Shown piece after piece: positions 6,372 to 41,416 of a DNA stretch of 64,000 nucleotides. The DNA comes from Lumbricus rubellus (lineage: Eukaryota > Annelida > Clitellata > Crassiclitellata > Lumbricidae). Position numbers and translations under genes: made by a program. The DNA lies in contig OX243827.1 in the NCBI GenBank assembly GCA_945859605.1, forward strand, positions 28,376,941 through 28,440,940, given 5' to 3'. The notes beneath the pieces were generated by a model. It saw only the letters and a program-made list of their open reading frames with translations, did not search any database and was not told the origin of the DNA. How positions within the stretch are numbered: the first letter of the stretch is position 1; every line of letters begins with the position of its first letter.

Positions 6372-6614
6372 TCAATGCCTTCTCTCTAACGTACCAAAGC
6401 CGTGAATGCTCGCGGTCTGTGTTGTAGAGCTGAGCATTGTTTCCTGTGCTTCCATACCTTTGTTGTCATACCCTATCATCTCAATGACACCTTCCATATC
6501 CATTTTCCTATTGAGCTCTTGGATCGAAGGCATCTTCTCGGAGATATCGTAAACGGTCTTACGACAACCACAAATGTAGTTTGAGTAGACGGAGGAAATC
6601 TTCCGTTTCACATT
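6372..6614 (-). CDS. Adhesion GPCR exon 20: cytoplasmic tail
   Basis: After the acceptor TTTTTCAG the exon codes NVKRKISSVYSN, continuing directly from the TM7 microexon, then a tail of 80 residues with several Ser/Thr sites and ends LERRH before TGA (6374-6372). No PDZ-binding C-terminus of class I type is seen. Confidence 0.88.
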   Translation of the reverse strand, partial: NVKRKISSVYSNYICGCRKTVYDISEKMPSIQELNRKMDMEGVIEMIGYDNKGMEAQETMLSSTTQTASIHGFGTLERRH

Positions 6615-9600
6615 CTGAAAAACATCCGTAGTTCACACTTAGTATCAACCTATAATATTATTATGGTCAAGGCATGCACACTTACAACACAGGGCATTCA
6701 AGCCTCGTTCGGTCAAACAAATGATGCTGACCATCTTTAGGCCTATTTATTCGCAAACTACTTCGATAGCGAGTCTCAAACGAACGAGCAAGGACCGTCT
6801 CAACAGACTTCCGTGCTTAAGATTCTCCGCTGGGTATACTATACAGTGTCGTACTCGATAGGGTACTGACCGTACTGACAGGCCAGTTGCAGTGAATATA
6901 ATTATATTAAATTACCGGTAGGGCCTATAGGCCTACGTTGAAGCTAATTATACCGGAATCCAGATACATAGAATAACGTCAGACTCTGCTATGCAACTGA
7001 CAAAAAGCCTAATATCGCAGATAGGGAATATAAATTGTTACTGACATAATATAGAGTTGCGGCTCATTTAAAACAACAAATTAATAAATAATATTTATAT
7101 AAAGATAAATTCGCTGTCTCAATGATAATTTGGTGCTATAATTTATTGTTTTATTAAACATAATTTACACCAATGGCGTAGCCAATGGCATTTTATTTTG
7201 GGGTTAAACCCTTTGGCTTAGGAAAATGTTTTCAAAGGTTATAATCCACTTAAACATTGTTTTCCATGAATTCCTAATCCAAAACCCCCATAATAAATTC
7301 CTGGCTACGCCACTGGTTATCACCAAAGTCCCCCACGTGTAATGAAGAATTGAAGATCTTACCCCGACGAGATTATGAATTAATGAGTAGCCTACGTATA
7401 ATTATAGGAGGCTGATAGAAGCTAGAACTATCCAGTCTAACAAAGGGATTCCCATGATCTAAATTCGATGGTTCGCATCCAGTTTCTAAAAGTAGTGACG
7501 TCCGAACTCTGCGACTTTATTGTTAACAAGCCCCTTGCAAATTGGAGTAACCTTGGCCAATAACAGCGTGCACCGCTCAACATATTAAATGCATCTCTAT
7601 AGAGATCTTGTTCCATAAATTGCTTGTCTGCAAATTAAGTAACAGCACTGGACTACTGGTACGATGATAATGAATCTGCTTACCTTGTTACGGTAAAGTG
7701 CATGAAAGGCAAAGATCAGCAGTCCCTATAAAAGTGTAAAAGGACCAGACGGTCTTGTTTGGAGTGAAATTAAAATAATAAGCAATTTATGTATGAAAGA
7801 CTATATTATGCAACTAATCAAACCTTTGCTGATTTTCTATGCTTGGCTGTCTTGCTGCTAATTATTCGAAGCACTTATTTAAACATGAAAATAACTATCA
7901 AAATTAATTTGCCTTGATTTTCACATTTTAATTAGCGTTAGCTAAATATTTCGAGATTTAGGACCTAAACGATTTTTTGAATTTAAGACTCGATGAATAA
8001 AATTATTTTCTGGTAGCCTATATATGACAATTATAAGGGCTTTCCTCGGACACAGTGTAGACCTACATGTCAGTTAAGGCATATTATGTATATTATAGAC
8101 ACACACCGGTTCGCGGTGGTGCAGTGGTATGTTCTGTGCCCTGTAATCGAAGGGTCGCAGGTTCGAATCTACCTCAAACCACTGCACACCAACTGTTCCC
8201 TCACTCTTATTCTACTTATTCACTTTGAGTATTTGCTTATTGCTGATTATGTCTATACTTTGTTAATCATAGGCTACATGTAGGCCTACAATTGAGTTGT
8301 TGGGATCAATAAAAAATATATCTAAACATAAGCTAATTATCGTGTCTTTACGAATACGAAGACAAAATCCATCTCTGACCTCCAGAGAGTTGGTGATGAC
8401 AAAAAGGTACTGGAAGACAACAGAATCGAAGGCGCCAAAGAGCCAACCAAGACCAAGCAGTGGACACGCCACAGTCAAATTCCAAATCGTCGCTCTTCAA
8501 CAACACATCACAAAATAATAAAGATGTACTGATAAATACCATTTAGGCCTACTTGGATTTGCAACGCAACTGAAAGTTTAGCCTACATCAAAGAACCAAT
8601 CAAGAATCAAGAACCTCACGTTTAACCAAAATAATAGGCTATAAGACCTGTTATAATAGGCCTACTATGATGCCCATACCGGGCCATACGTCCCAGTATT
8701 CCAGGACACTTTTTGTGGTGTGACTTGAATAGAAGAGTGAAATTGTCTCGGTTTCTAATCTTGAAAAAATCAATCTTTTGTAATGCCAACCCGCATAGGC
8801 TAACAGTTAGGCTACAGTGTTAGCGCGTCTCAATTTTCACACACCCTAGAATTGGGTCGATTCGATGCTATATAAGCATAGGCGGTGACATTTACGCAGT
8901 AAAAGATGCTAGTTGAGCGGGACGGAACTGGGCTGGTTAATTATAACATAAGCTTAATCGTTACTCCAAAAGAAGTTGGATTAGTAAAAAAAGGCTGTTG
9001 TTCAAATTGAAGCTGGATTGATTAAGCGATTTCTTGACTCCAGACCACAGGGCGGATACACCCCGAAGCGCTGAGCAATTGCGAGTGAAGGACTCGCCCA
9101 AGGTCCCTACGCGGCGACTTGAGGTGGATTCGAACCTGCAGCCCTCCGACCGCAATGCAACGAACATGCCCACTATACCAACCTCGCCTTACATTGTAGG
9201 CCTGCCAGGTATAAGCAACTATAATTATAGTTCACTAACAGGCGGTAGGAGTATCGACTATGCCATCCGATAGTTCTGTGCTTAGGGAATTGCACTTGAA
9301 AGTTTCAAAATGATTGTATCCCAATTTTTGATGGTTACAAAAGTGGTTACCTGATCTCGCTTCTCTTCTTCGCGTTAGTAGCGACTGAGTATCTCTCCTG
9401 AGACATCCACCTCAGAACGAGAAATAGAATGGCGAAGTTTAGCTGTTTAAACAACAAAGGCAGACGTCAGCCTGTGATGGAGGCTCTCCTTTTGAACATT
9501 AAGAAATAATGCACAGGGAATTTCTGACATCTTAGCCTAATATAATGACGTGCAGGCCTATTGAAATTGACCAACTCATCGTATGGCGTTCCCTGTGGAC

Positions 9601-12600
9601 AGTGTGGAGTAGGAGACAAAATAGCATTAATTGTAGATAAATCATAATTTATGTAGCGCCCTTCAAGGTATCTACTCAGAGGCGCTCCCGCCCGAGATCA
9701 AGCGAAACAAATCCAGTCTTCAACAGTTAGTGAAATTGAGAACAGCTTGGGATGTGTAGCATAGTCAATGGAAGTCCATTCAAGGTTGTTGGACCAACCA
9801 CAGAGAACGAACGCCTCTGCTTTGCTGCAGAGTCAGTGAAAGGAACCATTAAGTCACCACAGACGCACACACACATAATTATATATATATATATAATATA
9901 CATATTATATGTAAGACTAATCGTTTTGAGTCGAGTACTTGCCGTGAAAATACAGAGGATGGCTGTAGGGAATGTCCAGATGAGACCGTTCTTCAGCGAC
10001 AACCAACACCTGCTTAATTAAGAACGCAAAGAGATTCGGAATCATAAATAGGCCTATTGATAGTCTGAGCGAAATAATCAATTTTCTGCGTATGATCGAT
10101 GTTATCATAACATTGATTCTTCACTTTACACATAATAAATTATACTATTAACAATACTGCAATTATTATTATTATTATTATTATCGTCATCGTTATAATA
10201 ATTACTATTGTACAATTATCACACTGCTATCTTATTCAACATTTTCAAACGGCGTTATATATTGTGTACGATTTGGGGATAGGCCTAATATGGCTACCGG
10301 TGTTAATGTTATTTGGTTAAATTTCAGGCAAATACTAAAAGCTTTAACCGAGTAATGGCACTTTTTGTTGGGAACACAGTGTATAATATAGCTTGATTGC
10401 ATGCCTGGAAGGATAATACGAAAACGCGACGCTAGTGATCAGATACCTATAGGCCTAATGGCGTATAGGCTCATAACTATTATTAACTCGTATCAATATG
10501 GATTATACAAGGTACGATTTACTGACGCTGGACCGCTTTGATTGTAGCCATATCCATCAAGGTTTGTGGATCCGACAGACGCTGCCACAATGATGAGAGG
10601 CACAGCTGAATATGGCAGAATAACGCAAATGTATATAATATTTTTATATTGAACAATCGGTCAAGTATGTCGCGAGAAAACGTGTAGACTATTAGGCTAT
10701 AATAAGACTCGCGAAAGAGAGACTCTAGTCAAGCTAAGAGAAGAGGCAAAACTATTAATTTTACCAAATAAGAAACACTAAACGTGTGGTAAATAAACTG
10801 CCATTAACCAAAAGCAATCAAGTTATGCCATGGTATGATTCCATTGTGCATGCATTTTATCTCTAGAGATAAAACCAGACGGTTTTATTTTCAGCGAAAT
10901 TAAAGAAGTTCCAAGTGCTCGTTTAGCTATCAGACAAAGCCGAGTTTTCTCGGTGGTAAGCTCGTCCATCTGGAATGACCTCCATTCAATGCTACATTTA
11001 TTACGTCTGACCAATCAAAAGATCTAATAAATAACATTCGATTTGCAATGTAATTATTAACAAACGAATGAATTTCTCGCTAAAGAAAAAAAAACCAAAT
11101 ATTTCCTTGAAGATCTTTGACCCACGCAAGAAGTACAGGCTACGTCTCAATAATTTGACACGGATGCCAAATTGTGAGGCGTGAGAACGGAAATAAAAGG
11201 AATGTTCTTGAGGAAGATCTTATTGACCGGATCAAGAACTTTTTTGTAAGAAGTACTTATGCATTTCTTATAGTCAAAATTACTTTGCTTTGAATTAAGA
11301 ACAGCCTTTATGATCAACTACCATAATTTACTCACCCCATGCCGCAGCAATGAGCATAATTGTTTCTCTGGTTCTTCTGACGTGGTATACAAAGACGATG
11401 TAGAGCAACAGTTCCACACCTTCAGCCAACATGAGGAAAAATGCAACCAGAAAGAAGTAGTGCAGCAGATTGGCAACGACTGTGCAACCGACCTACAACA
11501 GACCAACAATTACAACGTTCCCAACATACATGTAGTAATATAATAGCTATTACGTTCTTTACAGAATCAATGATTATACTGCTGAGATTCTTTAGAATGC
11601 ATACGAGTGCTGTAGCGCAAGTGAACAAAAGCATAAAAATCAGTTGCACTTGTTATGATTAAGCCTATGCTCACATTACCTTATAGGCCTACTACAGGCA
11701 ATCAACATACTTTATTTTGCACACAACATTTATATCTAGCCCAGTACTGTTCAGTCCTGAAAGCCAACAACCGATAGGCCTACAGATAACGAACTGTTGT
11801 CATCTGCATACTTAATGCAACCCAGCCTTATAAGTGTCAACGCTCAAACTGTGCTAACAATGTACTTATTAACAACAACTTTAAACAAACGGGCAAAATA
11901 GAACTCTTCAATCAACCACATCCCCTCAAAATACTCCCGTTACATACATGTACTGTTGGATGCATTTATAACTACGTCTAAAGCATTGTAATCAAACAAG
12001 CATATTTGAGGCAATTAGAAATTAGGAACGAGGCCGTCTTAGATAAAATATAATGGTTCATTCATACCTCGGGTTGGACTTTGTCTGCTCCTGCCATGAA
12101 GATGATGAAAGCAATGATTAGAGCGACGCATAGATTAAGTAGGATAGTTGCCTGCGCTGATTGTGACTGTCTGTTAACAGAGGATGTTGCAATAAAAATC
12201 AAAATTCTTTCTACATGTGTGTAGGCCCAATAATTATGAAATTCAGATAAATTATCAACAATTAGTCACAGAGCACGAGTACTTCCTCAACCGTCCAACA
12301 TATTTGCGATTTACTGGTTAGTTTAGGAATACTCTGAGATACAACACAATTCTTGATCAATGTCCTCAGTACCTAAAGTGTAAACAGCAGATGCCTGGAC
12401 GCCCATTACCTTTCAGGCTGTGGCCTACTGGCTTAATAAGTGACAGGACGGCGTTCGGATTTGAATATTAGTGCACGAACGCCGTCCATGACGGTCCAGT
12501 CACACTTTAAGCCCTGAAAGTTTTAGTTGTATGGTTCAATGCATAGGAGGAAAATATCACTAACCACAGAATAACTGAACATTTCGATTAAAAAAATCAG

Positions 12601-15600
12601 AATTCCAGAGGTTCTTGTTCTGATACTTACTTCCAAGTTAAGGCGTAGACGATAATTGTAAGGATGAGGGCAATGACCGAGATACTACACCCGATGATTG
12701 CTACGATAGACAGCGCTCTGCTCGACTCTATGTCGTGCTGTAAGAGAGGTATCTGGAATGAGTAAGGGCATTATACATGTAATTCTGAATATTTCTATGA
12801 TCAATGTCCAATATCAACGCTAAAGTAACAAGTTAGGCTATTGGGCAAGATGGTGTATTTTGTTACGTCTTTGCTCATTAAAACAATGACTGCAGACTGG
12901 GTTTTTTTCGCAGTGAAGTCCTTACAACGTTCTGCGCGTCTATCGCGTCCAATAATATTGGTTATGACCTTCAGAGCTTTCCGTTTGTGAGTTGTAAGTA
13001 TGATATTAAGTATGTAAAAATGAAGTTTTTTCACTTTTTAAATGGCATGTCAGATGAAAGAAGCTCAAAGATCATTGGAAGTTTCGGATGTACTGCTGCA
13101 ATTCAACAACAGGTTTTCGTTGGAACATAATTATAGGACGCTGTGTATTTGTTGTGATTTTATGTATCCGTGTGGTCTTAACATAATAGAGTTAAGTAGA
13201 AAAAAACAATAACGAAAAATGAATAACATCCTTTCATCAAATTCTTCTAATTTATCCGTATAAGACAAATTTTATAGCATCATAAATGCACCTTATGTTG
13301 ACCGCGCGCATTTTATCAAGTTTTCTGCGCCACCTTCCATTAACTAGACTCATGCGATTGGATTTTATGCTAGATGCTCACCGAAGGAATTGTGCTGATT
13401 AAAATGACGAAGTTTGTCAGATGATCACAGCTGCAGATCGTGCGAGTTGGACTTGTTGAGCTCATCGTACAACCAGCGGAATCCCATTCGCCTCTGAAAC
13501 ATTCATCAAGTCACCAGAATGAAAATAAATGTCGACATTCTGATCCATGTTAGACAGCAGCAAGTGCCGTTCACTCCGCATCCAGTTTCACGTACGCGAT
13601 GAACCACTTTGCTCGGCTCATCGGGCGAATCCTAAATTTGCTTCAGTAAGTTCTGTATCTCTCTATAAGGGTGATGTTTGTTTGTGCACTTGTTATAGCG
13701 CCCCTTCAAGCTATCCTCTCAGAGCCGCTCCCGAATGCAGCTAGAGTAGACTAGTTACACAACATGAATAGGTTAGGCCTACTACTCGATTGGGGCTGAA
13801 ACATTCCGTGCGGTAACCGGTTAACCTAATTTTTATCTGCTGCTATTTTCATCGTTTTAGTTATTGCTAGTACAAATTTAATGTCTACCTGGTAAAATTC
13901 CAGAAGGCGCATGTTCTTCGAAAACTCATATTTTCTTCCTGGGTTAAAAAAAGTCAGTTCAATCAGATTCATTGAGCAGGCTACATGCACATGAACAATA
14001 CCTACAGCAAATTAAGATTATTCATTTCTAAAGTTTTACTGGAGATATTTCCATTAGTTGCGCAAAGACAAAGCGTGTAGGGCCTACATTAGTACATTGT
14101 AGGCCTACATGTAATGTTCTAATGAATACTCTCACGACGATATTGATTATCACGAGGATTATGACGCCTATGAAACTCGTGTTGAAAATAATGTTCGTAG
14201 TGAACATTAATTAAAAGACCGTATATACAGTTATTACAGGTATACCTGGTTGTGTCTTAGTGTAATAAGGACTGGAGGCTCTAGTTTTTCGTCTGTCTTC
14301 AGTCCGTCGATTGAAAACGATAGAACGTTTGAGCTGATGTTACCAAATTCTCTATATTGACAGTTCAAAATGACGGCTTAACAGCAAGACCAATCTAGGA
14401 AATCTCAAAGAAATCACACACTCTACACTCAAAGCTTTATAAATAATTTATCATTTACATCGACCACTAATATTAATGCTTTGTACATTTCGCTAAAATA
14501 TATTGGTTTAAATGGGCCAAATTTAGCAGGAGGTTGTCACTTTGGTAGACATGTTGCTCACAATTACTCATTGCGATATTATATCTCTTGTGACTGCCAC
14601 TTACTGATAAACTTATTTGCTCACAAAACTTAATTTCGCAAATTGTTATTAATGCAGAACTGAATGAATCATGCATAAACTTGTTGCTATATTATGCTGT
14701 CACATCGTGTAGCCTATATTGTTTGGAACAATAAAATAAATTTGATCTGACTTGGATTTAATTTGATAAAGCTGTCGTAAACGATTGAATAGAGGACCTC
14801 AAAGCAAATACTTGCAATGTCATCCCAAAGCATATAATAATTATCAACTTCAAAAATCAGAACCATACAAGCATCAAAAAGTCACACACAACTAGACTAC
14901 ACTTACCCCAGTCAGACGCTTGTTAGGCGTAAATCGTTTCTTATTCACGTTCAATGTTCAATGCATAGAACATGCAGCGGAACTGGGGTATAAAATATAG
15001 TCATCATTCAGGCCTGCAAACGATATCAATTCAATCACCTCATTGTTATTAAGATTCGGGTAAGGGTTTTCAGGGGAGAAGTGGTAGTGTGTGTAATACT
15101 GTGTATGCACGCGCGATTGCTCTAATCGTTGTCATGCACTCGTGCGAATAGAATAATATTGTAGTAGTAATTGTTGTATCATAAGTTTTAAAAAATACTC
15201 TAAATCTTCTTACTTGCTGGCAGGAAGGTAGTTGTGAATGGTATGATAATGCGAACCCCACATGTTCAGAGTCGGATGACTTCCTGATGAACTGACTGCA
15301 AAGTAAGTCACCCAGAAAAGGATTAAGTTCTTGCTGTCATAGATTTACCTATGGCACAGCAAGTAGTTCAGTGTTTTGTTTCACCTTTTGGGCGGCGCTG
15401 TATGCCCTATAATTATTCTTTCAGCTAGATTTACAATTTTTTTTATTGTTTACCAAGACGCGCCAATCCAGAAACTCTTAAATTGTGTAGGCTGTAAAAT
15501 GAGTGTACTAATTCTTCGTGTGTGTTCCGTGCTATACAGAAGACAGTGATGACTCTAATGGTTATCTGATCGGTGTCTTGGTACACAGATAAATGTGTTG

Positions 15601-17918: not shown

Positions 17919-17997
<79 letters not shown>

Positions 17998-18008
17998 GTC
18001 TGTCTGCC

Positions 18009-18107
<99 letters not shown>

Positions 18108-19824: not shown

Positions 19825-19866
<42 letters not shown>

Positions 19867-28800: not shown

Positions 28801-31800
28801 CTGACACAGCTGATGTCATCCCATCCATTGTCGAGGCTTCGGTGACAGACATTGTGGTCTCACTTGATAAATCTATTGCTGCTGATGTCGTCCCATCCAT
28901 TGTCGAGGCTTCGGTGATAGGCATTGTGGTCTCACCTGATGAATCTGTTGCTGCTGATGTCATCCCATCCATTGTCGAGGCTTCGGTGACAGACATTGTG
29001 GTCTCACTTCCTGAATCTGTTACTGCTGTTGTCGTTCCATCCATTGTCGAGGCTTCGGTGACAGGCATTGTGGTCTCACTTCCTGAATCTGTTGCTGCTG
29101 ATGTCGTCCCATCCATTGTCGAAGCTTGGGTGACAGGCATTGTGGTCTCACTTGATGAATCTGTTGCTGCTGATGTCGTTCCATCCATTGTCGAGGCTTC
29201 GGTGACAGACATTGTGGTCTCACTTGATGAATCTGTTGCAGCTGATGTCGTTTCATCCATTGCCGAGGTTTCGGTGACAGACATTGTGGTCTCACTTCCT
29301 GAATCTGTTGCTGCTGATGTCGTTCCATCCATTGTCGCTGCTTCGGTGACAAACAATGTGGTGGGACTTCCTGAATCTGTTGCTGCTGATGTCATCCCAT
29401 CCATTGTCGAGGCTTCGCTGACAGGCATTGTGGTCTCACTTGATGAATCTGTTGCTGCTGATGTCGTCCCATCCATTGTCGAGGCTTCGGTGACATAGAT
29501 TGTGGTCTCACTTGATGAATCTGTTGCTGCTGATGTCGTTTCATCCATTGCCGAGGTTTCGGTGACAGACATTGTGGTCTCACTTCCTGAATCTGTTACT
29601 GCTGTTGTCGTTCCATCCATTGTCGAGGCTTCGGTGACAGGCATTGTGGACTCACTTCTTGAATCTGTTGCTGCTGATGTCGTCCCATCCATTGTCGAGG
29701 CTTCGGTGACAGACATTGGGGTCTCACTTGATGAATCTGTTGCTGGTGATGTCGTCCAATCCATTGTCAAAATTTCGGTGACAAACAATGTGGTGGGACT
29801 TCCTGAATCTGTTGCTGCTGATGTCATCCCATCCATTGTCGAGGCTTCGGTGACAGGCTTTGTGGTCTCACTTGATGAATCTGTTGCTGCTGATGTCGTC
29901 CCATCCATTGTCGAGACTTCGGTGACAGACATTGTGGTCTCACTTGATGAATCTGTTGCTGCTGATGTCGATTCATCCATTGCCGAGGTTTCGGTGACAG
30001 ACATTGTGGTCTCACTTCCTGAATCTGACACTGCTGATGTCGTCCCATCCATTGTCGAGGCTTCGGTGACAGACATTGTGGTCTCACTTCCTGAATCGGT
30101 TGCTGCTGATGTCGTCCCATCCATTGTCGAAGCTTGGGTGACAGGCATTGTGGTCTCATTTTCTGAATCTGTTGCTGCTGATGTCATCCCATCCGTTGTC
30201 GAGGTTTCGGTGACAGACATTGTGGTCTCACTTTCTGAATCTGTTACTGCTGTTGTCGTTCCATCCATTGTCGAGGCTTCGGTGACAGACCTTGTGGTAT
30301 TACTTCTTGAATCTGTTGCTGCTGATGTCGTCCCATCCATTGTCGAGGCTTCGGTGACAGACATTGTGGTCTCACTTTCTGAATCTGTTGCTGCTGATGT
30401 CATCCCATCCATTGTCGAGGCTTCGGTGACAGACATTGTGGTATTACTTCTTGAATCTGTTGCTGCTGATGTCGTCCCATCCATTGTCGAGGCTTCGGTG
30501 ACAAACAATGTGGTCTCACTTCCTGAATCTGACACAGCTGATGTCATCCCATCCATTGTCGAGGCTTCGGTGACAGACATTGTGGTCTCACTTCCTGAAT
30601 CTGTTGCTGCTGATGTCGTCCCATCCATTGTCGAGGCTTCGGTGATAGGCATTGTGGTCTCACCTGATGAATCTGTTGCTGCTGATGTCATCCCATCCAT
30701 TGTCGAGGCTTCGGTGACAGACATTGTGGTCTCACTTTCTGAATCTGTTACTGCTGTTGTCGTTCCATCCATTGTCGAGGCTTCGGTGACAGACCTTGTG
30801 GTATTACTTCTTGAATCTGTTGCTGCTGATGTCGTCCCATCCATTGTCGAGGCTTCGGTGACAGACATTGTGGTCTCACTTTCTGAATCTGTTGCTGCTG
30901 ATGTCATCCCATCCATTGTCGAGGCTTCGGTGACAGACAATGTGGTATTACTTCTTGAATCTGTTGCTGCTGATGTCGTCCCATCCATTGTCGAGGCTTC
31001 GGTGACAAACATTGTGGTCTCACCTGATGAATCTGTTGCTGCTGATGTCATCCCATCCATTGTCGAGGCTTCGGTGACAGACATTGTGGTCTCACTTCCT
31101 GAATCTGTTACTGCTGTTGTCGTTCCATCCATTGTCGAGGCTTCGGTGACAGGCATTGTGGTCTCACTTCCTGAATCTGTTGCTGCTGATGTCGTCCCAT
31201 CCATTGTCGAAGCTTGGGTGACAGGCATTGTGGTCTCACTTGATGAATCTGTTGCTGCTGATGTCGTCCCATCCATTGTCGAGGCTTCGGTGACAGACTT
31301 TGTGGTCTGACTTGATGAATCTGTTGCAGCTGATGTCGTTTCATCCATTGCCGAGGTTTCGGTGACAGACATTGTGGTCTCACTTCCTGAATCTGTTGCT
31401 GCTGATGTCGTTCCATCCAATGTCGCTGCTTCGGTGACAAACAATGTGGTGGGACTTCCTGAATCTGTTGCTGCTGATGTCATCCCATCCATTGTCGAGG
31501 CTTCGCTGACAGGCATTGTGGTCTCACTTGATGAATCTGTTGCTGCTGATGTCGTCCCATCCATTGTCGAGGCTTCGGTGACATAGATTGTGGTCTCACT
31601 TGATGAATCTGTTGCTGCTGATGTCGTTTCATCCATTGCCGAGGTTTCGGTGACAGACATTGTGGTCTCACTTCCTGAATCTGTTACTGCTGTTGTCGTT
31701 CCATCCATTGTCGAGGCTTCGGTGACAGGCATTGTGGACTCACTTCTTGAATCTGTTGCTGCTGATGTCGTCCCATCCATTGTCGAGGCTTCGGTGACAG

Positions 31801-34800
31801 ACATTGGGGTCTCACTTGATGAATCTGTTGCTGGTGATGTCGTCCAATCCATTGTCAAAATTTCGGTGACAAACAATGTGGTGGGACTTCCTGAATCTGT
31901 TGCTGCTGATGTCATCCCATCCATTGTCGAGGCTTCGGTGACAGGCTTTGTGGTCTCACTTGATGAATCTGTTGCTGCTGATGTCGTCCCATCCATTGTC
32001 GAGACTTCGGTGACAGACATTGTGGTCTCACTTGATGAATCTGTTGCTGCCGATGTCGATTCATCCATTGCCGAGGTTTCGGTGACAGACATTGTGGTCT
32101 CACTTCCTGAATCTGACACTGCTGATGTCGTCCCATCCATTGTCGAGGCTTCGGTGACAGACATTGTGGTCTCACTTCCTGAATCGGTTGCTGCTGATGT
32201 CGTCCCATCCATTGTCGAAGCTTGGGTGACAGGCATTGTGGTCTCACTTTCTGAATCTGTTGCTGCTGATGTCATCCCATCCGTTGTCGAGGCTTCGGTG
32301 ACAGACATTGTGGTCTCACTTTCTGAATCTGTTACTGCTGTTGTCGTTCCATCCATTGTCGAGGCTTCGGTGACAGACCTTGTGGTATTACTTCTTGAAT
32401 CTGTTGCTGCTGATGTCGTCCCATCCATTGTCGAGGCTTCGGTGACAGACATTGTGGTCTCACTTCCTGAATCTGACACTGCTGATGTCATCCCATCCAT
32501 TGTCGAGGCTTCGGTGACAAACATTGTGGTCTCACTTGATAAATCTGTTGCTGCTGATGTCGATTCATCCATTGCCGAGGTTTCGGTGACAGACATTGTG
32601 GTCTCACTTCCTGAATCTGACACTGCTGATGTCGTCCCATCCATTGTCGAGGCTTCGGTGACAGACATTGTGGTCTCACTTCCTGAATCGGTTGCTGCTG
32701 ATGTCGTCCCATCCATTGTCGAAGCTTGGGTGACAGGCATTGTGGTCTCACTTTCTGAATCTGTTGCTGCTGATGTCATCCCATCCGTTGTCGAGGCTTC
32801 GGTGACAGACATTGTGGTCTCACTTTCTGAATCTGTTACTGCTGTTGTCGTTCCATCCATTGTCGAGGCTTCGGTGACAGACCTTGTGGTATTACTTCTT
32901 GAATCTGTTGCTGCTGATGTCGTCCCATCCATTGTCGTGGCTTCGGTGACAGACATTGTGGTCTCACTTTCTGAATCTGTTGCTGCTGATGTCATCCCAT
33001 CCATTGTCGAGGCTTCGGTGACAGACAATGTGGTATTACTTCTTGAATCTGTTGCTGCTGATGTCGTCCCATCCATTGTCGAGGCTTCGGTGACAAACAT
33101 TGTGGTCTCACTTCCTGAATCTGACACAGCTGATGTCATCCCATCCATTGTCGAGGCTTCGGTGACAGACATTGTGGTCTCACTTGATAAATCTATTGCT
33201 GCTGATGTCGTCCCATCCATTGTCGAGGCTTCGGTGATAGGCATTGTGGTCTCACCTGATGAATCTGTTGCTGCTGATGTCATCCCATCCATTGTCGAGG
33301 CTTCGGTGACAGACATTGTGGTCTCACTTCCTGAATCTGTTACTGCTGTTGTCGTTCCATCCATTGTCGAAGCTTGGGTGACAGGCATTGTGGTCTCACT
33401 TGATGAATCTGTTGCTGCTGATGTCGTCCCATCCATTGTCGAGGCTTCGGTGACAGACATTGTGGTCTGACTTGATGAATCTGTTGCAGCTGATGTCGTT
33501 TCATCCATTGCCGAGGTTTCGGTGACAGACATTGTGGTCTCACTTCCTGAATCTGTTGCTGCTGATGTCGTTCCATCCATTGTCGCTGCTTCGGTGACAA
33601 ACAATGTGGTGGGACTTCCTGAATCTGTTGCTGCTGATGTCATCCCATCCATTGTCGAGGCTTCGCTGACAGGCATTGTGGTCTCACTTCCTGAATCGGT
33701 TGCTGCTGATGTCGTCCCATCCATTGTCGAAGCTTGGGTGACAGGCATTGTGGTCTCACTTTCTGAATCTGTTGCTGCTGATGTCATCCCATCCGTTGTC
33801 GAGGCTTCGGTGACAGACATTGTGGTCTCACTTTCTGAATCTGTTACTGCTGTTGTCGTTCCATCCATTGTCGAGGCTTCGGTGACAGACCTTGTGGTAT
33901 TACTTCTTGAATCTGTTGCTGCTGATGTCGTCCCATCCATTGTCGAGGCTTCGGTGACAGACATTGTGGTCTCACTTCCTGAATCTGACACTGCTGATGT
34001 CATCCCATCCATTGTCGAGGCTTCGGTGACAAACATTGTGGTCTCACTTGATAAATCTGTTGCTGCTGATGTCGATTCATCCATTGCCGAGGTTTCGGTG
34101 ACAGACATTGTGGTCTCACTTCCTGAATCTGACACTGCTGATGTCGTCCCATCCATTGTCGAGGCTTCGGTGACAGACATTGTGGTCTCACTTCCTGAAT
34201 CGGTTGCTGCTGATGTCGTCCCATCCATTGTCGAAGCTTGGGTGACAGGCATTGTGGTCTCACTTTCTGAATCTGTTGATGCTGATGTCATCCCATCCGT
34301 TGTCGAGGCTTCGGTGACAGACATTGTGGTCTCACTTTCTGAATCTGTTACTGCTGTTGTCGTTCCATCCATTGTCGAGGCTTCGGTGACAGACCTTGTG
34401 GTATTACTTCTTGAATCTGTTGCTGCTGATGTCGTCCCATCCATTGTCGTGGCTTCGGTGACAGACATTGTGGTCTCACTTTCTGAATCTGTTGCTGCTG
34501 ATGTCATCCCATCCATTGTCGAGGCTTCGGTGACAGACAATGTGGTATTACTTCTTGAATCTGTTGCTGCTGATGTCGTCCCATCCATTGTCGAGGCTTC
34601 GGTGACAAACATTGTGGTCTCACTTCCTGAATCTGACACAGCTGATGTCATCCCATCCATTGTCGAGGCTTCGGTGACAGACATTGTGGTCTCACTTGAT
34701 AAATCTATTGCTGCTGATGTCGTCCCATCCATTGTCGAGGCTTCGGTGATAGGCATTGTGGTCTCACCTGATGAATCTGTTGCTGCTGATGTCATCCCAT

Positions 34801-37800
34801 CCATTGTCGAGGCTTCGGTGACAGACATTGTGGTCTCACTTCCTGAATCTGTTACTGCTGTTGTCGTTCCATCCATTGTCGAAGCTTGGGTGACAGGCAT
34901 TGTGGTCTCACTTGATGAATCTGTTGCTGCTGATGTCGTCCCATCCATTGTCGAGGCTTCGGTGACAGACATTGTGGTCTGACTTGATGAATCTGTTGCA
35001 GCTGATGTCGTTTCATCCATTGCCGAGGTTTCGGTGACAGACATTGTGGTCTCACTTCCTGAATCTGTTGCTGCTGATGTCGTTCCATCCATTGTCGCTG
35101 CTTCGGTGACAAACAATGTGGTGGGACTTCCTGAATCTGTTGCTGCTGATGTCATCCCATCCATTGTCGAGGCTTCGCTGACAGGCATTGTGGTCTCACT
35201 TGATGAATCTGTTGCTGCTGATGTCGTCCCATCCATTGTCGAGGCTTCGGTGACAGAGATTGTGGTCTCACTTGATGAATCTGTTGCTGCTGATGTCGTT
35301 TCATCCATTGCCGAGGTTTCGGTGACAGACATTGTGGTCTCACTTCCTGAATCTGTTACTGCTGTTGTCGTTCCATCCATTGTCGAGGCTTCGGTGACAG
35401 GCATTGTGGACTCACTTCTTGAATCTGTTGCTGCTGATGTCGTCCCATCCATTGTCGAGGCTTCGGTGACAGACATTGGGGTCTCACTTGATGAATCTGT
35501 TGCTGGTGATGTCGTCCAATCCATTGTCAAAATTTCGGTGACAAACAATGTGGTGGGACTTCCTGAATCTGTTGCTGCTGATGTCATCCCATCCATTGTC
35601 GAGGCTTCGGTGACAGGCTTTGTGGTCTCACTTGATGAATCTGTTGCTGCTGATGTCGTCCCATCCATTGTCGAGGCTTCGGTGACAGACATTGTGGTCT
35701 CACTTAATGAATCTGTTGCTGCTGATGTCGATTCATCCATTGCCGAGGTTTCGGTGACAGACATTGTGGTCTCACTTCCTGAATCTGACACTGCTGATGT
35801 CGTCCCATCCATTGTCGAGGCTTCGGTGACAGACATTGTGGTCTCACTTCCTGAATCGGTTGCTGCTGATGTCGTCCCATCCATTGTCGAAGCTTGGGTG
35901 ACAGGCATTGTGGTCTCACTTTCTGAATCTGTTGCTGCTGATGTCATCCCATCCGTTGTCGAGGCTTCGGTGACAGACATTGTGGTCTCACTTTCTGAAT
36001 CTGTTACTGCTGTTGTCGTTCCATCCATTGTCGAGGCTTCGGTGACAGGCATTGTGGACTCACTTCTTGAATCTGTTGCTGCTGATGTCGTCCCATCCAT
36101 TGTCGAGGCTTCGGTGACAGACATTGGGGTCTCACTTCCTGAATCTGACACTGCTGATGTCATCCCATCCATTGTCGAGGCTTCGGTGACAAACATTGTG
36201 GTCTCACTTGATAAATCTGTTGCTGCTGATGTCGTCCCATCCATTGTCGAGGCTTCGGTGATAGGCATTGTGGTCTCACCTGATGAATCTGTTGCTGCTG
36301 ATGTCATCCCATCTTCTGTCGAGGCTTCGGTGACAGACATTGTGGTCTCACTTCCTGAAACTGTTACTGCTGTTGTCGTTCCATCCATTGTCGAGGCTTC
36401 GGTGACAGGCATTGTGGTCTCACTTCCTGAATCTGTTGATGCTGATGTCGTCCCATCCATTGTCGAAGCTTGGGTGAAAGGCATTGTGGTCTCACTTGAT
36501 GAATCTGTTGCTGCTGATGTCGTCCCATCCATTGTCGAGGCTTCGGTGACAGACATTGTTGTCTCACTTGATGAATCTGTTGCAGCTGATGTCGTTTCAT
36601 CCATTGCCGAGGCTTCGGTGACAGACATTGTGGTCTCACTTCCTGAATCTGTTACTGCTGATGTCGTCCCATCCATTGTCGAGGCTTCGGTGACAGACAT
36701 TGTGGTCTCACTTGATGAATCTGTTGCTGCTGATGTCATCCCATCCATTGTCGAGGCTTCGGCGACAGGCTTTGTGGTCTCACTTGATGAATCTGTTGCT
36801 GCTGATGTCGTCCTATCCATTGTCGAGGCTTCGGTGACAGACATTGTGGTCTCACTTGATGAATTTGTTGCTGCTGATGTCGTCCCATCCATTGTCGAGG
36901 CTTCGGTGACAGACAATGTGGCTTCACTTGATGAATCTGTTGCTGCTGATGTCGTGTCATCCATTGTCGAGGCTTCGGTGACAAACATTGTGGTCTCACT
37001 TCCTGAATCTGTTGCTGCTGATGTCGTCCAATCCATTGTCGAGGCTTCGGTGACAGACATCGTGGTCGCACTTCCTGAATCTGTTGCTTCTGATGTCGTC
37101 CCATCCATTGTCGAGGCTTCGGTGACAGACATTGTGGTCTCAATTGATGAATCTGTTGCCGCTGATGTCGTTTTATCCATTGCCGAGGTTTCGGTGACAG
37201 ACATTGTGGTCTCACTTCCTGAATCTGTTGCTGCTGATGTCGTCCCATCCATTGTCGAGGCTTCGGTGACAGGCATTGTGGTCTCACTTGATGAATCTGT
37301 TGCTGCTGATGTCGTCCCATCCATTGTCGAGGCTTCGGTGACAGACATTGTGGTCTCACTTGATGAATCTGTTGCTACTGATGCCGTTTCATCCATTGCC
37401 GAGGTTTCGGTGACAGACATTGTGGTCTCACTTCCTGAATCTGACACTGCTGATGTCGTCTCATCCATTGTCGAGGCTTCGGTGACAGACATTGTGGTCT
37501 CACTTCCTGAATCTGTTGCTGCTGATGTCGTCCCATCCATTGTCGAAGCTTGGGTGACAGGCATTGTGGTCTCACTTTCTGAATCTGTTGCTGCTGATGT
37601 CATCCCATCCATTGTCGAGGCTTCGGTGACAGACATTGTGGTCTCACTTGATGAATCTGTTACTGCTGTTGTCGTTCCATCCATTGTCGAGGCTTCGGTG
37701 ACCGACATTGTGGTATTACTTCCTGAATCTGTTGCTGCTGATGTCGTCCCATCCATTGTCGAGGCTTCGGTGACAGACATTGTGGTCTCACATCCTGAAT

Positions 37801-40459
37801 CTGACACTTCTGATGTCATCCCATCCATTGTCGAGGCTTCGGTGACAGACATTGTGGTCTCACTTGATGAATCTGTATCTGCTGATGTCGTCCCATCCAT
37901 TGTTGAAGCTTCGGTGATAGGCATTGTGGTCTCACCTGATGAATCTGTTGCTGCTGATGTCATCCCATCCATTGTCGAGGCTTCGGTGACAGACATTGTG
38001 GTCTCACTTCCTGAATCTGTTACTGCTGTTGTCGTTCCATCCATTGTCGAGGCTTCGGTGACAGGCATTGTGGTCTCACTTCCTGAATCTGTTGCTGCTG
38101 ATGTCGTCCCATCCATTGTCGAAGCTTGGGTGACAGGCACTGTGGTCTCACTTTCTGAATCTCTTGCTGCTGATGTCATCCCATCCATTGTCGAGGCTTC
38201 GGTGACAGACATTGTGGTCTCACTTTCTGAATCTGTTGCTGCTGATGTCGTCCCATCCATTGTCGAGGCTTCGGTGACAGACATTGTGGTCTCACCTGAT
38301 GAATCTGTTGCTGCTGATGTCATCCCATCCATTGTCAAGGCTTCGGTGACAGACATTGTGGTCTCACTTCTTGAATCTGTTGCTTCTGATGTCGTCCCAT
38401 CCATTGTCGAGGCTTCGGTGACAGACATTGTGGTTTCACTTGATGAATCTGTTGCTGCTGATGTCGTCCCATCCATTGTCGAAGCTTGGGTGACAGGCAT
38501 TGTGGTCTCACTTGATGAATCTGTTGCTGCTGATGTCGTCCCATCCATTGTCGAGGTTTCGGTGACAGACATTGTGGTATCACTTCCTGAATTTGTTGCT
38601 GCTGATGTCGTTCCATCCATTGTCGCTGCTTCGGTGACAAACAATGTGGTGGGACTTCCTGAATCTGTTGCTGCTGATGTCATCCCATCCATTGTCGAGG
38701 CTTCGGTGACAGACATTGTGGTCTCACTTGATGAATCTGTTGCTGCTGATGTCGTTTCATCCATTGCCGAGGTTTCGGTGACAGACATTTTGGTCTCACT
38801 TCCTGAATCTGTTACTGCTGATGTCGTCCCATCCATTGTCGAGGCTTCGGTGACAGACATTGTGGTATTACTTGATGAATCTGTTGCTGGTGATGTCGTC
38901 CCATCCATTGTCGAGGCGTCGGTGTCAGGCATTGTGGTCGCACTTCCTGAATCTGTTGCTGCTGATGTCGTCCCATCCAGTGTCGCAGCTTCGGTGACAG
39001 GCCTTGTGGTCGCACTTCCTGAATCTGTGGCTGCTGATGTCGTCCCATCCATTGTCGAGGCGTCGGTGTCAGGCATTGTGGTCGCACTTCCTGAATCTCT
39101 TGCTGCTGATGTCTTTCCATCCATTGTCGCAGCTTCGGTGACAGATATTGGGGTCTCGCTTCCTGAGTCTGTTGTTTCTGATGTCGAATCATCCATTATC
39201 GAAGCTTGGGTGACAGGCATTGTGGTCGCAATTCCTGAATCTGTTGCCGCTGGTGCGTTTCCAACTATTGTCGCAGCTTTCATCATAAAAATTGTGCTTT
39301 CAGTTCCTGAATCTGTGGCTGCTGGTATGGTTCCATCAATTGTCGTTGGATCGGTAATATACGTTGAAGTTTTATTTTCTCTATCTATGACTACCGTGTT
39401 GTTTTCAAGATTTGCCGTCGATTCGGTGGTTGCCATTGCCGATGTATATGCTCTTTCATAAATGACTGTTGCAGAAATTGCGTCTGTCGCGTTCTCTGTG
39501 CCTACAAATTAATCACTAATTTTTTCATCCTTAATCTTCGATTTATTTTTTTCCCATTGCGACAAACCAGATTTATTTATTTAGACATTGAAAAAACCTG
39601 AGATTTCGCTTGAGATCTATTTTTGCCTAACGTCCTAGCAGAATGTAGTCTTCTGACGAAAGCAGTAATAATTATAGAGAACGACGACAACGATGCTAAA
39701 TAATAATTGTGTAGCCAACTGTAGGTTGCTGTTTATTCAAAGATAGCCTCAGCAAAAAGCAACAGGGAGGAACAACGTTAAAATTAAAAAGAGAATTTTT
39801 TCAAGTTAGGCGAACCAATGGAAGGAAACATAGCCTAAAGTCTAGCGTGGTCTGCTGCAAGGCCGTGGCCAGGATTTGATTTTGGGAAGGGGGGGGTTCT
39901 TCGGGGGAGAATTTCTGACGATTTTTTTTGTAGTCGTCAAACTTTCTGACGACGTTTTTCAGCCGGTGGAAGCGGCTTTCCTGCCATTTTTCGCATAATT
40001 TCATGTTTTTTCCATTATGTGATAGTGAATGGAATATATTTTTTCCATTTTTCATTTGTGGAGGGGGGTGTTTTCATGGTTTTATTTCATGGTTTTTGCA
40101 TCATGTGCTAGTAAATGCATTATATTATTGCTTACAGTTTCCATTTCGGGGGTTGTTCAACACCCAAAACACCCCCTAGCTACGGCCTTGGTCTGCTACA
40201 AGTAATATTATAGTCTTTCTGCGTAATTGCAAGTTTTGACTGATCAACGAAAATTATTATGATGATAGTTAACGGTTCTTCGCTTGGTTTTTCAACGGAT
40301 AAAAATTTGCTTGGATTGTTATTCTTGCAAATTCACCATCACATTTTCCCCGATTTCGATCAGTACATTTTAAGACGAAACTAAAGACTTACCGGCGCAA
40401 TGAGTAAAACTCAGAGTAAGCGAGAGTGAAAAGGCGAGAGCAGCTTCCAAAATCTTCAT
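6372..40459 (-). CDS. Giant mucin-stalk adhesion G protein-coupled receptor (20 exons, 5573 aa)
   Basis: A class B2 (adhesion) GPCR read from splice sites; all 19 junctions keep phase and the exons sum to 16,722 nt. Exons in order: 40459-40393, 39501-24802, 23732-23626, 21574-21392, 20679-20611, 16925-16814, 15887-15774, 15295-15214, 14351-14246, 13938-13889, 13493-13382, 12752-12631, 12170-12068, 11492-11336, 10605-10527, 10009-9943, 9442-9351, 8494-8380, 7725-7684, 6614-6372. Layout: signal peptide 1-22, mucin-like repeat stalk to about 4920, HormR-like Cys motif 4923-4958, GAIN 4959-5180, GPS 5190-5223, seven helices 5249-5488, tail to 5573. Known for the family: self-cleavage at the GPS gives an extracellular fragment held on the 7TM fragment, and the new N-terminus acts as a tethered agonist. 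The stalk is far longer than usual. Ligand and subfamily cannot be read from the sequence. Confidence 0.9.
7171..7315. mobile_element. MITE with GGCGTAGCCA-type ends
   Basis: Left end CAATGGCGTAGCCA and right end TGGCTACGCCACTG form terminal inverted repeats around about 145 bp, in the last intron of the GPCR gene. No clear target duplication was seen. Confidence 0.5.
7684..12752 (-). CDS. Adhesion GPCR exons 12-19: seven-transmembrane domain
   Basis: Eight exons: 12752-12631 (TM1, SIVAIIGCSISVIALILTI), 12170-12068 (TM2, ILLNLCVALIIAFIIF), 11492-11336 (TM3, CTVVANLLHYFFLVAFF, MLAEG), 10605-10527 (TM4, AVPLIIVAASVG and ECL2 GYGY), 10009-9943 and 9442-9351 (CWLS and TM5, intracellular loop 3), 8494-8380 (TM6, PLLGLGWLFGAF, and YLFVITNSLE of TM7), 7725-7684 (42 nt microexon, GLLIFAFHALYRNK). 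Conserved family features are present: TM3 C5312 and ECL2 C5389 for a disulfide, HYFF in TM3, the GLGW toggle region of TM6 and the NS-x-x-G turn of TM7. The TM5 intron (9942-9443) has a GC donor, GCAAGT; the nearby GTACTC would break the frame. Confidence 0.92.
8105..8172 (+). mobile_element. tRNA-derived SINE head
   Basis: An A-box-like GGTGGTGCAGTGGTATG and a perfect B box GGTTCGAATCT lie about 50 bp apart, as in pol III promoters. The sequence does not fold into a clean tRNA, so a SINE or tRNA pseudogene is the better call. It lies in a GPCR intron. Confidence 0.6.
9035..9190 (-). mobile_element. tRNA-derived SINE, antisense copy
   Basis: Read on the minus strand: an A-box-like TGGTATAGTGGGCATG, a B box GGTTCGAATCC, then the family body CGCGTAGGGACCTTGGGC and CACTCGCAATTGCTCAG. 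It matches the copies at 1755, 42757 and 47339. Confidence 0.7.
9655..9686 (-). repeat. SINE-tail hairpin
   Basis: AGCGCC to GGCGCT arms around a CTACTCAGA loop side. This is a copy of the dispersed AGCGCCTCTGAGTAGA hairpin. Confidence 0.6.
13382..13938 (-). CDS. Adhesion GPCR exons 10-11: GPS autoproteolysis motif and tethered agonist
   Basis: Exon 10 (13938-13889) codes the CAFWNF part and exon 11 (13493-13382) GEWDSAGC, CSC and DHLTNFVILI. All hallmark residues are present: C5190, W5193, W5200, C5205, C5217, C5219 and the H-L-T triad 5221-5223, with cleavage expected between L5222 and T5223. The new N-terminus TNFVILI fits a Stachel-type tethered agonist. The membrane-bound fragment would be 351 residues. 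Confidence 0.92.
13697..13729 (-). repeat. SINE-tail hairpin
   Basis: AGCGCCCCTTCAAG followed by TCTCAGAGCCGCT, a diverged minus-strand copy of the same hairpin. Confidence 0.55.
14246..21574 (-). CDS. Adhesion GPCR exons 4-9: GAIN domain
   Basis: Six exons: 21574-21392, 20679-20611, 16925-16814, 15887-15774, 15295-15214, 14351-14246 (residues 4959-5180). GAIN subdomain A is seen in ARRLSDLTNK and SVMVINQLAAM (exon 4), SFVAAISNVLQ and AWKEL (exon 5), and FSVDVFARRLSML (exon 6), matching the family pattern of a SN-LL-W helix followed by LL-VE-FA. Subdomain B is seen in NKISIPKEAL, VLSFSIDGLK and EPPVLITLRHNQ. Exon 6 uses the acceptor TTTGTAG ending at 16926, not the closer CTCAG at 16893; only the former keeps phase and restores the NILFSVD segment. 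The exon 5 donor is GTTCAC and the exon 4 donor GTCGTT, both weak, so these two boundaries are least certain. Confidence 0.85.
15931..16131. mobile_element. 201 bp MITE with target duplication
   Basis: Ends AGGCGTACG and CGTACGCCT(ATG) are inverted repeats, and the 11-mer TGTGAAGCCAT flanks both sides (15920-15930 and 16132-16142). The interior has long G and C runs and the GACCTTTTTTTTAGTCAT motif shared with 48025 and 50350. It sits in the intron between GPCR exons 6 and 7. Confidence 0.75.
16217..16249 (-). repeat. SINE-tail hairpin
   Basis: AGCGCCTCTTGAAGG followed by CTACTCAGAGGCGCT, a minus-strand copy with intact arms. Confidence 0.6.
17917..18104 (+). repeat. (TC)n/(TCTG)n compound microsatellite
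   Basis: A TC run, a TCTG run and a second TC run, inside the hAT-like element. Confidence 0.98.
18162..19381. mobile_element. Nested EnSpm/CACTA-like element, 1220 bp
   Basis: It begins CACTGGACAACA and ends TGTTGTCCAGTG (12 bp perfect inverted repeats) with a TTA duplication on each side (18159-18161, 19382-19384). CACTG ends, a 3 bp duplication and internal subterminal repeats fit the EnSpm/CACTA superfamily. No transposase is present. It is inserted in the hAT-like element. Confidence 0.7.
18181..18900 (+). repeat. Four tandem copies of a ~178 bp unit
   Basis: The marker TAGAATTTGACGTGCTGAAC recurs at about 18220, 18396, 18578 and 18756, spacings 176-182 bp. Part of the unit (TTTCTCAAAAACCTTACGTGAT) is found once in reverse orientation near 19266, next to the right end of the element. 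Confidence 0.9.
19548..19649 (+). repeat. 51 bp tandem duplication
   Basis: Two adjacent copies, starting GTCATTCGTCCCAACGCGCC at 19548 and 19599, differ by about one base. Confidence 0.9.
20834..21040 (+). pseudogene. mariner/Tc1-type transposase C-terminal remnant
   Basis: Plus-strand sequence codes NPVDYKIYG, then after a frameshift VYTTKVCDVEDLRKRI, AWNDLDQRI and VREWRKRLRACV followed by a stop. This is the usual C-terminal end of mariner-like transposases (PxDY-IWG, then DVEDL, DQRI, WRxRLRACV). The catalytic core is absent. It lies in the intron between GPCR exons 4 and 5. Confidence 0.7.
21863..21924. repeat. Perfect 62 bp palindrome
   Basis: CAGTTAGTTGCATAGACTGT to its exact reverse complement, with no spacer and an AT centre. 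Confidence 0.95.
22392..22540. repeat. Long inverted repeat, arms ~52 bp
   Basis: Arms beginning CTGATGACGATAAGCGCTTC and ending GAAGCGCTTATCTTCATCAG differ at a few sites around a 43 bp loop. Probably a fold-back MITE in the intron between GPCR exons 3 and 4. Confidence 0.85.
23626..23732 (-). CDS. Adhesion GPCR exon 3: HormR-like Cys/Trp motif
   Basis: The exon follows the acceptor ATTCTAG and codes residues 4923-4958. It contains C4925, C4929, W939 region (SPIWSH) and C4947 in NGCFDVEF, a pattern resembling the C-terminal half of the hormone-receptor (HormR/HRM) domain that precedes GAIN in many adhesion GPCRs. The N-terminal half of that domain is not present, so it is either a reduced HormR or a separate linker. 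Phase 1 in, phase 0 out (GTGAAT). Confidence 0.65.
24802..39501 (-). CDS. Adhesion GPCR exon 2: 14.7 kb mucin-like repeat exon
   Basis: One uninterrupted exon of 14,700 nt (residues 23-4923). After a short unique Thr/Ala-rich lead it codes roughly 200 copies of a 24-residue unit that begins TTSAATDS and ends TEASTMDG. Half the consensus residues are Ser or Thr, there are many Asp and Glu, almost no Lys, Arg, Cys or aromatics, and some copies carry an N-T-T sequon. This composition is that of a heavily O-glycosylated, extended, acidic mucin stalk. The frame runs on to a stop at 24743, but the exon must end at the GTAAGC donor 24801-24796 (phase 1), which joins in frame to the Cys-rich exon at 23732. 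Repeats degrade toward both ends of the array, as usual for arrays kept uniform by unequal exchange. Confidence 0.92.
24900..39330 (-). repeat. 72 bp coding tandem array with higher-order structure
   Basis: The period is exactly 72 bp (24 codons), so every frame is kept through the array. Larger blocks are themselves repeated: matching rare variants sit 2088 bp (29 units, 29496 and 31584), 2160 bp (30 units, 31308 and 33468) and 1512 bp (21 units, 33468 and 34980) apart. The antisense and third-frame open frames seen here come from this periodicity. Confidence 0.95.
39857..40189. mobile_element. 333 bp hAT-type MITE in intron 1 of the adhesion GPCR
   Basis: Ends AAGGCCGTGGCCAGG and CCTAGCTACGGCCTT are related inverted repeats, and an exact 8 bp duplication GGTCTGCT flanks them (39849-39856, 40190-40197). 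The interior has G runs and repeated TTTCTGACGA motifs. Confidence 0.7.
40393..40459 (-). CDS. Adhesion GPCR exon 1: signal peptide
   Basis: ATG at 40459-40457 opens a 22-codon exon, MKILEAALAFSLSLTLSF then THCA, a typical signal peptide with a likely cut after THCA. It ends phase 1 at a GTAAGT donor (40392-40387). The next acceptor, TTTGTAG at 39508-39502, restores a Gly codon and the frame of the giant exon. This start is preferred over the ATG at 39436, which lies inside exon 2 and has no signal sequence. Confidence 0.88.
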
Positions 40460-40642: not shown

Positions 40643-40649
40643 TATTTAT
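40643..40649 (-). promoter_or_regulatory. Candidate TATA element upstream of the adhesion GPCR
   Basis: ATAAATA on the minus strand, about 185 nt upstream of the start codon. It would place transcription start near 40615. Only position and sequence support it. Confidence 0.2.

Positions 40650-40935: not shown

Positions 40936-41416
<481 letters not shown>

Follow-up and report, generated by a model that had tools for sequence, protein, structure and literature searches.

The DNA analyzed here is a 64,000-nucleotide stretch of the annelid Lumbricus rubellus (GenBank assembly GCA_945859605.1, contig OX243827.1, positions 28,376,941 to 28,440,940), hereafter the window. Its minus strand carries, at 40459..6372, a gene predicted to encode an adhesion G protein-coupled receptor (GPCR) with a giant Ser/Thr-rich stalk. 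Rebuilt exon by exon, this gene comprises 21 exons and 5,607 residues (Table 1). Reading phases agree at 20/20 junctions, the sole stop in the spliced model is the terminal one, and the introns include 19 of the GT-AG type and one GC-AG intron (after exon 17, donor GCAAGT). The domain order is signal peptide, 14,700-bp repeat exon, HRM, GAIN, GPS, and seven-transmembrane (7TM) region. The original prediction for this locus, an adhesion GPCR whose giant Ser/Thr-rich stalk comes from a single exon, is borne out jointly by the open reading frame (ORF), Tandem Repeats Finder (TRF), the spliced model, and Pfam. Its borders for exons 1 and 2 and its gene end were recovered in the spliced model. Its count of 18 exons downstream of the repeat exon is revised to 19, as exon 3 had been overlooked, and its 5573-residue frame is lengthened accordingly. 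Joining exon 2 directly to exon 4 keeps the frame as well, so a form that skips exon 3 would also be in frame. We regard the anatomy reconstructed in this way as very probably correct.

Table 1. Exons of the reconstructed gene, subdivisions of the repeat exon, and the intronic control array
Feature	Position	Strand	Basis
Exon 1: ATG and signal-peptide-like MKILEAALAFSLSLTLSFTHCA, phase-1 donor GTAAGT	40393..40459	-	Spliced model
Exon 2: 14,700-bp repeat exon, amino acids 23-4922, phase 1 in/out	24802..39501	-	ORF, spliced model, unit count
N-terminal flank of array: degenerate, Ser/Thr-rich	39293..39501	-	Alignment to unit, Pfam
196 whole 24-residue units, consensus MSVTEASTMDGTTSAATDSGSETT	25181..39292	-	TRF, unit count
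C-terminal flank of array: degenerate, frame kept	24802..25180	-	Alignment to consensus
Read-through past exon 2 donor, ending at stop	24743..24801	-	ORF, sequence reading
Exon 3: HRM first half, 102 bp, in-frame cassette phase 1/1, donor GTGGGC	24161..24262	-	Spliced model, Pfam
Exon 4: HRM second half	23626..23732	-	Spliced model, Pfam, P0001 alignment
Exon 5: GAIN	21392..21574	-	Spliced model, Pfam, P0001 alignment
Exon 6: GAIN	20611..20679	-	Spliced model, Pfam, P0001 alignment
Tandem repeat, noncoding, ~4 copies of ~178 bp, intron 6	18178..18899		
Exon 7: GAIN	16814..16925	-	Spliced model, Pfam, P0001 alignment
Exon 8: GAIN	15774..15887	-	Spliced model, Pfam, P0001 alignment
Exon 9: GAIN	15214..15295	-	Spliced model, Pfam, P0001 alignment
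Exon 10: GAIN	14246..14351	-	Spliced model, P0001 alignment
Exon 11: GPS first part (TCAFWNFT)	13889..13938	-	Spliced model, Pfam, P0001 alignment
Exon 12: GPS with HL/T site and tethered-agonist-like TNFVILISTIPS	13382..13493	-	Spliced model, Pfam
Exon 13: TM1	12631..12752	-	Spliced model, Pfam, P0001 alignment
Exon 14: TM2	12068..12170	-	Spliced model, Pfam, P0001 alignment
Exon 15: TM3 and TM4 start (helix limits by eye)	11336..11492	-	Spliced model, Pfam, P0001 alignment
Exon 16: TM4 and extracellular loop 2	10527..10605	-	Spliced model, Pfam, P0001 alignment
Exon 17: CWLS and TM5 start, GC donor	9943..10009	-	Spliced model, Pfam, P0001 alignment
Exon 18: TM5 and intracellular loop 3	9351..9442	-	Spliced model, Pfam, P0001 alignment
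Exon 19: TM6 and TM7 start	8380..8494	-	Spliced model, Pfam, P0001 alignment
Exon 20: TM7 end	7684..7725	-	Spliced model, P0001 alignment
Exon 21: cytoplasmic tail and stop; P0001 matches first part only	6372..6614	-	Spliced model, P0001 alignment

The stalk lies within a minus-strand stop-to-stop frame of 4,921 amino acids (24743..39508). In this frame TRF reported a period of 72 with 196.9 copies (25169..39345; 88% matches, 0% indels, score 21618), and 196 in-register, gap-free units of 24 residues occupy amino acids 93 to 4796. The units have a mean identity of 93.3% to the consensus MSVTEASTMDGTTSAATDSGSETT; 107 are distinct as DNA and 102 as peptide. The array had been described as perfectly periodic, a description that holds for unit length, which shows no indel, but not for sequence. 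The reading frame of the array contains no stop in 4,704 codons, compared with 91, 200, 460, 5, and 196 stops in the other five frames. The antisense of the array (plus strand, 24834..39461) likewise has one almost open frame, with 5 stops across 4,703 codons, and five plus-strand open frames of 503 to 1,554 amino acids opposite the array are a by-product of the repeat. The N-terminal flank matches the unit at 128/175 aligned bases with gaps of 6, 2, 3, 10, 4, 3, and 1 and is stop-free, while the C-terminal flank matches the consensus at 226/333 aligned bases (68%) with gaps of only 6 and 3 bp. Chance is excluded as the source of the repeat array and of the receptor domains described below.

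The 4,900-residue stalk is 47.1% Ser plus Thr, and this richness continues into the degenerate flanks. It contains 25 N-x-S/T motifs and 2 Cys, carries a net charge of -739, and falls in the disordered region of the charge-hydropathy plot. The label mucin-like is thus partly supported: the Ser/Thr content and tandem repeats fit it, the proline content of just 1.8% does not, and glycosylation is presumed. No Pfam family was found within the 4,921-amino-acid frame at E ≤ 0.1. A tip domain was not recognized either, as the first 116 amino acids, searched at E ≤ 10, gave only a sub-threshold GW match (E = 0.08). Pfam found no SEA domain ahead of HRM; the SEA domain of ADGRG4 came from structure prediction (PMC10687090).

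The receptor part gave Pfam matches, each above the curated cut-off, to 7tm_2 (E = 4e-39, spanning profile positions 3 to 250 of 250), GAIN (5.5e-14), GPS (3.3e-13), and HRM (3.2e-6). The GAIN, GPS, and 7TM domains called originally were therefore all found by profile search of the translated exons. An HL/T site is present at H5255 L5256 / T5257 (13423..13415), where the GPS reads DHL/TNFVILISTIPS, and the motif together with the candidate tethered-agonist sequence forms DHLTNFVILISTIPS (residues 5254-5268). Cleavage and a tethered agonist would be expected from these residues. With a GAIN domain containing a GPS, a secretin-type 7TM, and the HL/T motif, the predicted protein is an adhesion GPCR (class B2).

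By sequence, the top match in the PDB was ADGRL3 (E = 9.5e-54), among 49 distinct chains at E ≤ 0.001. A protein search with the receptor part scored 7,997 candidates and retrieved 29 at E ≤ 0.001; it admitted proteins of ~380 to 1,209 amino acids, a range in which full-length giant-stalk relatives could not appear. One hit, P0001 (encoded on a 4,502-bp jgi contig), shares 54% identity with the window protein across 623 columns, of which 30 are gaps. Its sequence begins just before VCSRKC and follows the window protein collinearly from the beginning of exon 4 to a point in exon 21; beyond that the tails diverge. This collinearity supports the joins of exons 4 to 21, GC donor included. The P0001 tail (residues 604-856) is a long Ser/Thr/Gln-rich semi-repeat, predicted to be unstructured; the last exon in the window ends after ~80 residues without such a semi-repeat. 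In a tree of all 29 hits and the window protein (30 rows, 28 different; ADGRG4 left out), the window protein and P0001 grouped at 100/100. These two formed a set of six with the molluscan P0002 (Sinanodonta, partial), P0003 (Argopecten), P0004 (Patella), and P0011 (Saccostrea), with support of 99/100. This molluscan company points to a spiralian animal without proving it. A Foldseek search with a P0001 model ranked CD97, BAI3/BAI2 HormR-GAIN, ADGRD1, and ADGRL2/3 first and class B hormone receptors lower; the model had a mean predicted local distance difference test (pLDDT) score of 62.3, with 301/856 residues below 50, mostly in the tail.

HRM gave no Pfam match without exon 3 (E ≤ 10) and was matched at E = 2.4e-7 with it. 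Several features speak for the giant exon as part of the receptor gene. It is in phase 1 at both ends. The exon 2 donor at 24802 is the top-scoring GT site (5.1 bits) in 25300..24700, as scored with a rough weight matrix for human splice sites. A simple hydropathy rule, which accepted the donors GTAA, GTGA, GTAT, and GTAC and would miss, e.g., GTGG, found exon 1 to be the sole hydrophobic ATG with a phase-1 donor in 42500..39502, in intron 2, and in the intron following exon 3. The exon 2-3 join is thus predicted from splice sites, phase, and the absence of a rival start.

Taken together, we favor an adhesion GPCR whose mucin-like N-terminal fragment works as a force sensor. This reading as a whole is moderately probable, since it blends a very probable anatomy with a mechanism to which we give somewhat less than even weight. 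Mechanosensing is plausible; granted the anatomy, sensing of mucus or glycocalyx load specifically remains a tentative proposal. If this isoform is transcribed, as we infer, its N-terminal fragment would be built as in a membrane mucin, with a signal peptide and ~4,900 Ser/Thr-rich residues containing the 196 units. The GAIN domain would self-cleave at HL/T (residues 5256/5257), and the stalk fragment would remain non-covalently bound. Dragged, entangled, or retained in the surrounding glycocalyx or mucus, the O-glycosylated stalk would pull on GAIN, exposing the tethered agonist TNFVILISTIPS and turning G-protein signaling on. As no adhesive tip was recognized, the stalk itself would have to pick up force along its length, by drag or binding. 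At 0.25 nm per residue, a figure used in PMC10687090, 4,900 residues would reach ~1.2 µm, and so compliant a stalk may suit a high-threshold, large-displacement, or shear sensor.

A number of points weigh against this reading. The gene model is read from DNA alone, the exon 3 donor is weak (2.3 bits, equal to the exon 4 donor), and the proline content of the stalk is low for a mucin. Purifying selection on the repeat residues was looked for in the distinct variants and not found, as detailed below. A relative with the same stalk was also not found in word-based, length-limited protein searches: residues 60-1360 of the 4,921-amino-acid frame gave no homolog at E ≤ 0.001 among 1,257 candidates scored, and a 600-amino-acid piece gave none at E ≤ 10 among 7,991, although this absence is weak evidence because such searches reach only relatives of similar length sharing exact 5-residue words. 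Finally, in fly CIRL a longer adhesion GPCR ectodomain lowered the mechanosensory response (PMC5548486). A sensitive touch sensor agrees less well with this result than a sensor of high threshold and large displacement, or than a function as a barrier or in shedding.

Load sensing has two serious competitors, namely a barrier or shedding function and neutral expansion; the rival explanations overlap, and their odds need not sum. The stalk may be mainly a glycocalyx barrier or a sheddable mucin, in which case cleavage would free the 4,900-residue fragment and the 7TM would report its loss, not graded force. The GPS with HL/T would permit such release, no tip domain able to bind a partner was recognized, and a signal exon followed by a single giant repeat exon is the membrane-mucin plan of MUC3A (PMC9578598). 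A mere anchor, however, would find HRM, GAIN, GPS, and 7TM superfluous, and all four are present, while no SEA domain was found by Pfam. We consider this account possible, if rather unlikely.

Alternatively, the array may be a minisatellite expanded in a disordered linker, its length having no special function and being tolerated while the frame stays open. Recent duplications are evident: a 21-unit block has been copied in tandem at 99.93% identity, and a 20-unit block reappears 29 units further on at 99.5%. The array grew through block copying, though part of this duplication could be assembly error. Compared with the consensus, the distinct variants comprise 26 synonymous (26.8 expected) and 79 nonsynonymous (75.7 expected) changes, are spread evenly over codon positions (38/35/33), and include 26 Ser/Thr losses (26.9 expected). 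With neutral proportions and Ser/Thr losses at chance level, nothing shows that the sequence of the stalk matters. The stalk residues are without visible selection; the frame is kept, with no stop and no indel.

Preservation of the frame was examined in two ways. The array has no indels alongside 106 distinct substitution variants, whereas the noncoding array in intron 6 (repeat of ~178 bp) shows 4 gap events for every 40 substitution variants. This rate would predict 10.6 gaps for 106 variants (Poisson P = 2.5e-5), from one small control that consists of three whole copies of one intronic array and whose alignment is partly ambiguous. If the 106 distinct variants fell at random, 3.4 stops would be expected; the real codons contain 0 (P(0) = 0.02). 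One variant type was scored as a stop (68 cells) from the first base of codon 20 alone; the real codon 20 in those cells is TCA (67) or TTA (1). The selection and stop tests are not independent, as the units are copies of one another. The absence of indels and the Ser/Thr richness of the degenerate flanks argue against a minisatellite devoid of function, but both also fit plain frame preservation, and we rate this explanation as a credible minority view.

The locus may also make two products: exons 1-2, read through to the stop at 24743, would give a secreted mucin, and a transcript that skips exon 2 or starts elsewhere would give a short receptor. If the exon 2 donor goes unused, a stop follows 59 bases past exon 2, and retention of intron 2 could possibly yield a secreted stalk without a receptor. 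Exons 2 and 3 are both phase-1/1 cassettes, and skipping either would preserve the frame. Since the exon 2 donor outscores its neighbors, and the hydropathy rule found no alternative hydrophobic ATG with a matching donor in intron 2 or the intron following exon 3, two products appear improbable.

Acidic-flanked Ser-Gly is a glycosaminoglycan site, and the stalk has 91 Ser-Gly pairs, 88 of them with Asp/Glu 1-2 residues before the Ser (52 DSGSE). The stalk could then be a proteoglycan core with glycosaminoglycans on DSG/ESG sites, a proposal compatible with the other readings. Gly, however, occupies unit position 20 in just 80/196 units, and the Ser/Thr density suits mucin-type O-glycans, which makes a proteoglycan quite improbable. 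AlphaFold2, given a 10-unit block with 18 other array blocks as the alignment, returned a beta-solenoid (pLDDT 88.8, predicted template modeling score 0.86), and the exact 24-residue length of 196/196 units would suit such a rod (~94 nm long, assuming a rise of 0.48 nm per 24-residue coil) in place of an extended glycosylated chain. We set this model aside as almost certainly an artifact, and the rod as very improbable: the five models spread from 88.8 down to 58.1, no PDB match reached E ≤ 0.001, Pro stands at unit position 2 in 60/196 units, and AlphaFold2 is documented in PMC11795689 to predict spurious beta-solenoids with high confidence from random repeats, a shuffled mucin-22 repeat (pLDDT 90.3) among them.

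Elsewhere in the window, two seemingly paralogous Ig-like receptor genes lie upstream, with tails of tandem 11-residue repeats (47121..45976 and 61741..60959, minus strand). Ig-like exons at 63136..62759 and 54813..54388 gave Pfam Ig matches that were all below cut-offs. A possible Ig-like exon at 49644..49111 had no Pfam Ig match and resembles 63136..62759 by eye, and a transmembrane-like stretch lies within 48761..48288. The tail repeats of the first Ig-like gene contain 26 Tyr and 18 YxxL/V/I motifs; those of the second contain 13 Tyr and one such motif (NPYLVPVS). The palindrome TAGGCCTA occurs 45 times in the window, against 0.50 expected from dinucleotide shuffles, with 0 occurrences inside the 14.7-kb exon; a literature search on it offered no explanation. 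A reverse-transcriptase fragment (45710..45390, minus strand) gave a sub-threshold RVT_1 match (E = 7.8e-4). Neither an Rfam family (gathering threshold) nor a tRNA was found in the window, six pattern matches to viral contigs were not confirmed, and phages gave no match for 2 kb of the window.

Both halves of the receptor gene have known plans, a membrane-mucin 5' part and a standard adhesion GPCR 3' part, and ADGRG4 already combines these ideas. MUC3A and MUC3B share the single giant tandem-repeat exon 2 after a signal exon (exon 1 presumably carrying the signal peptide). According to PMC9578598, exon 2 measures 15,873 bp (5,291 amino acids) in MUC3A and 39,267 bp in MUC3B, with 166 and 549 perfect 17-residue repeats, respectively. 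The window array, originally called extreme for a single exon, may be so among GPCRs, but these mucin exons are larger. In contrast to membrane mucins, the window protein has HRM-GAIN-GPS-7TM instead of a single transmembrane anchor, and its low proline content departs from a Pro-Thr-Ser composition. Latrophilin/CIRL (ADGRL) shares the HRM-GAIN-GPS-7TM body, in keeping with ADGRL3 as the best PDB match; the window protein differs in having a giant stalk and no lectin or olfactomedin domain by Pfam. The four molluscan proteins, its nearest named GPS-7TM relatives in the tree, are 446-855 amino acids long, and P0003 has Ig-family Pfam domains.

The closest parallel is human ADGRG4 (GPR112), an adhesion GPCR in which a giant mucin-like stalk rich in Ser/Thr precedes HRM and GAIN. 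As described in PMC10687090, its mucin stalk has been proposed as a shear mechanosensor, and the mechanical or mucus sensing put forward in the original prediction is the same idea. According to the same paper, the tip of ADGRG4 is pentraxin-like, a SEA domain is predicted, and the mucin region, about 2,000 residues long, spans ~residues 279-2244. The window protein lacks a recognized pentraxin-like N terminus or SEA domain (Pfam), and its stalk is ~2.5 times longer and built in strict 24-residue units. Scores for 7TM-only chains were 122 bits for D1, 120 for L2, 115 for L3, 114 for E5, and 84 for ADGRG4. The 7TM is thus nearer to ADGRD1, L2, L3, and E5, and this pairwise comparison suggests an origin separate from ADGRG4. 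In the open-access literature, as covered by titles and abstract openings, we found no report of this gene or of another tip-less mucin-stalk adhesion GPCR.

A more specific scenario, which we consider unlikely, is that this lineage acquired a membrane-mucin 5' part (signal and giant tandem-repeat exon, joined through phase-1 introns) as the front of an HRM-GAIN-7TM receptor, separately from ADGRG4 and with no adhesive tip, and that repeat length, in 24-residue steps, sets the force threshold. If so, length alleles and an exon-2-skipping isoform would offer a ready-made range of stalk lengths on which the tension model of adhesion GPCR activation could be tested; in PMC5548486, tuning of force sensing by ectodomain length was examined with added spacers in flies. 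A natural stalk of ~4,900 residues without a recognized tip would test whether a mucin stalk alone loads the GAIN domain. If transcripts confirm the gene, it would be a second case of a mucin stalk joined to an adhesion GPCR beside ADGRG4, apparently separate from it by 7TM score.
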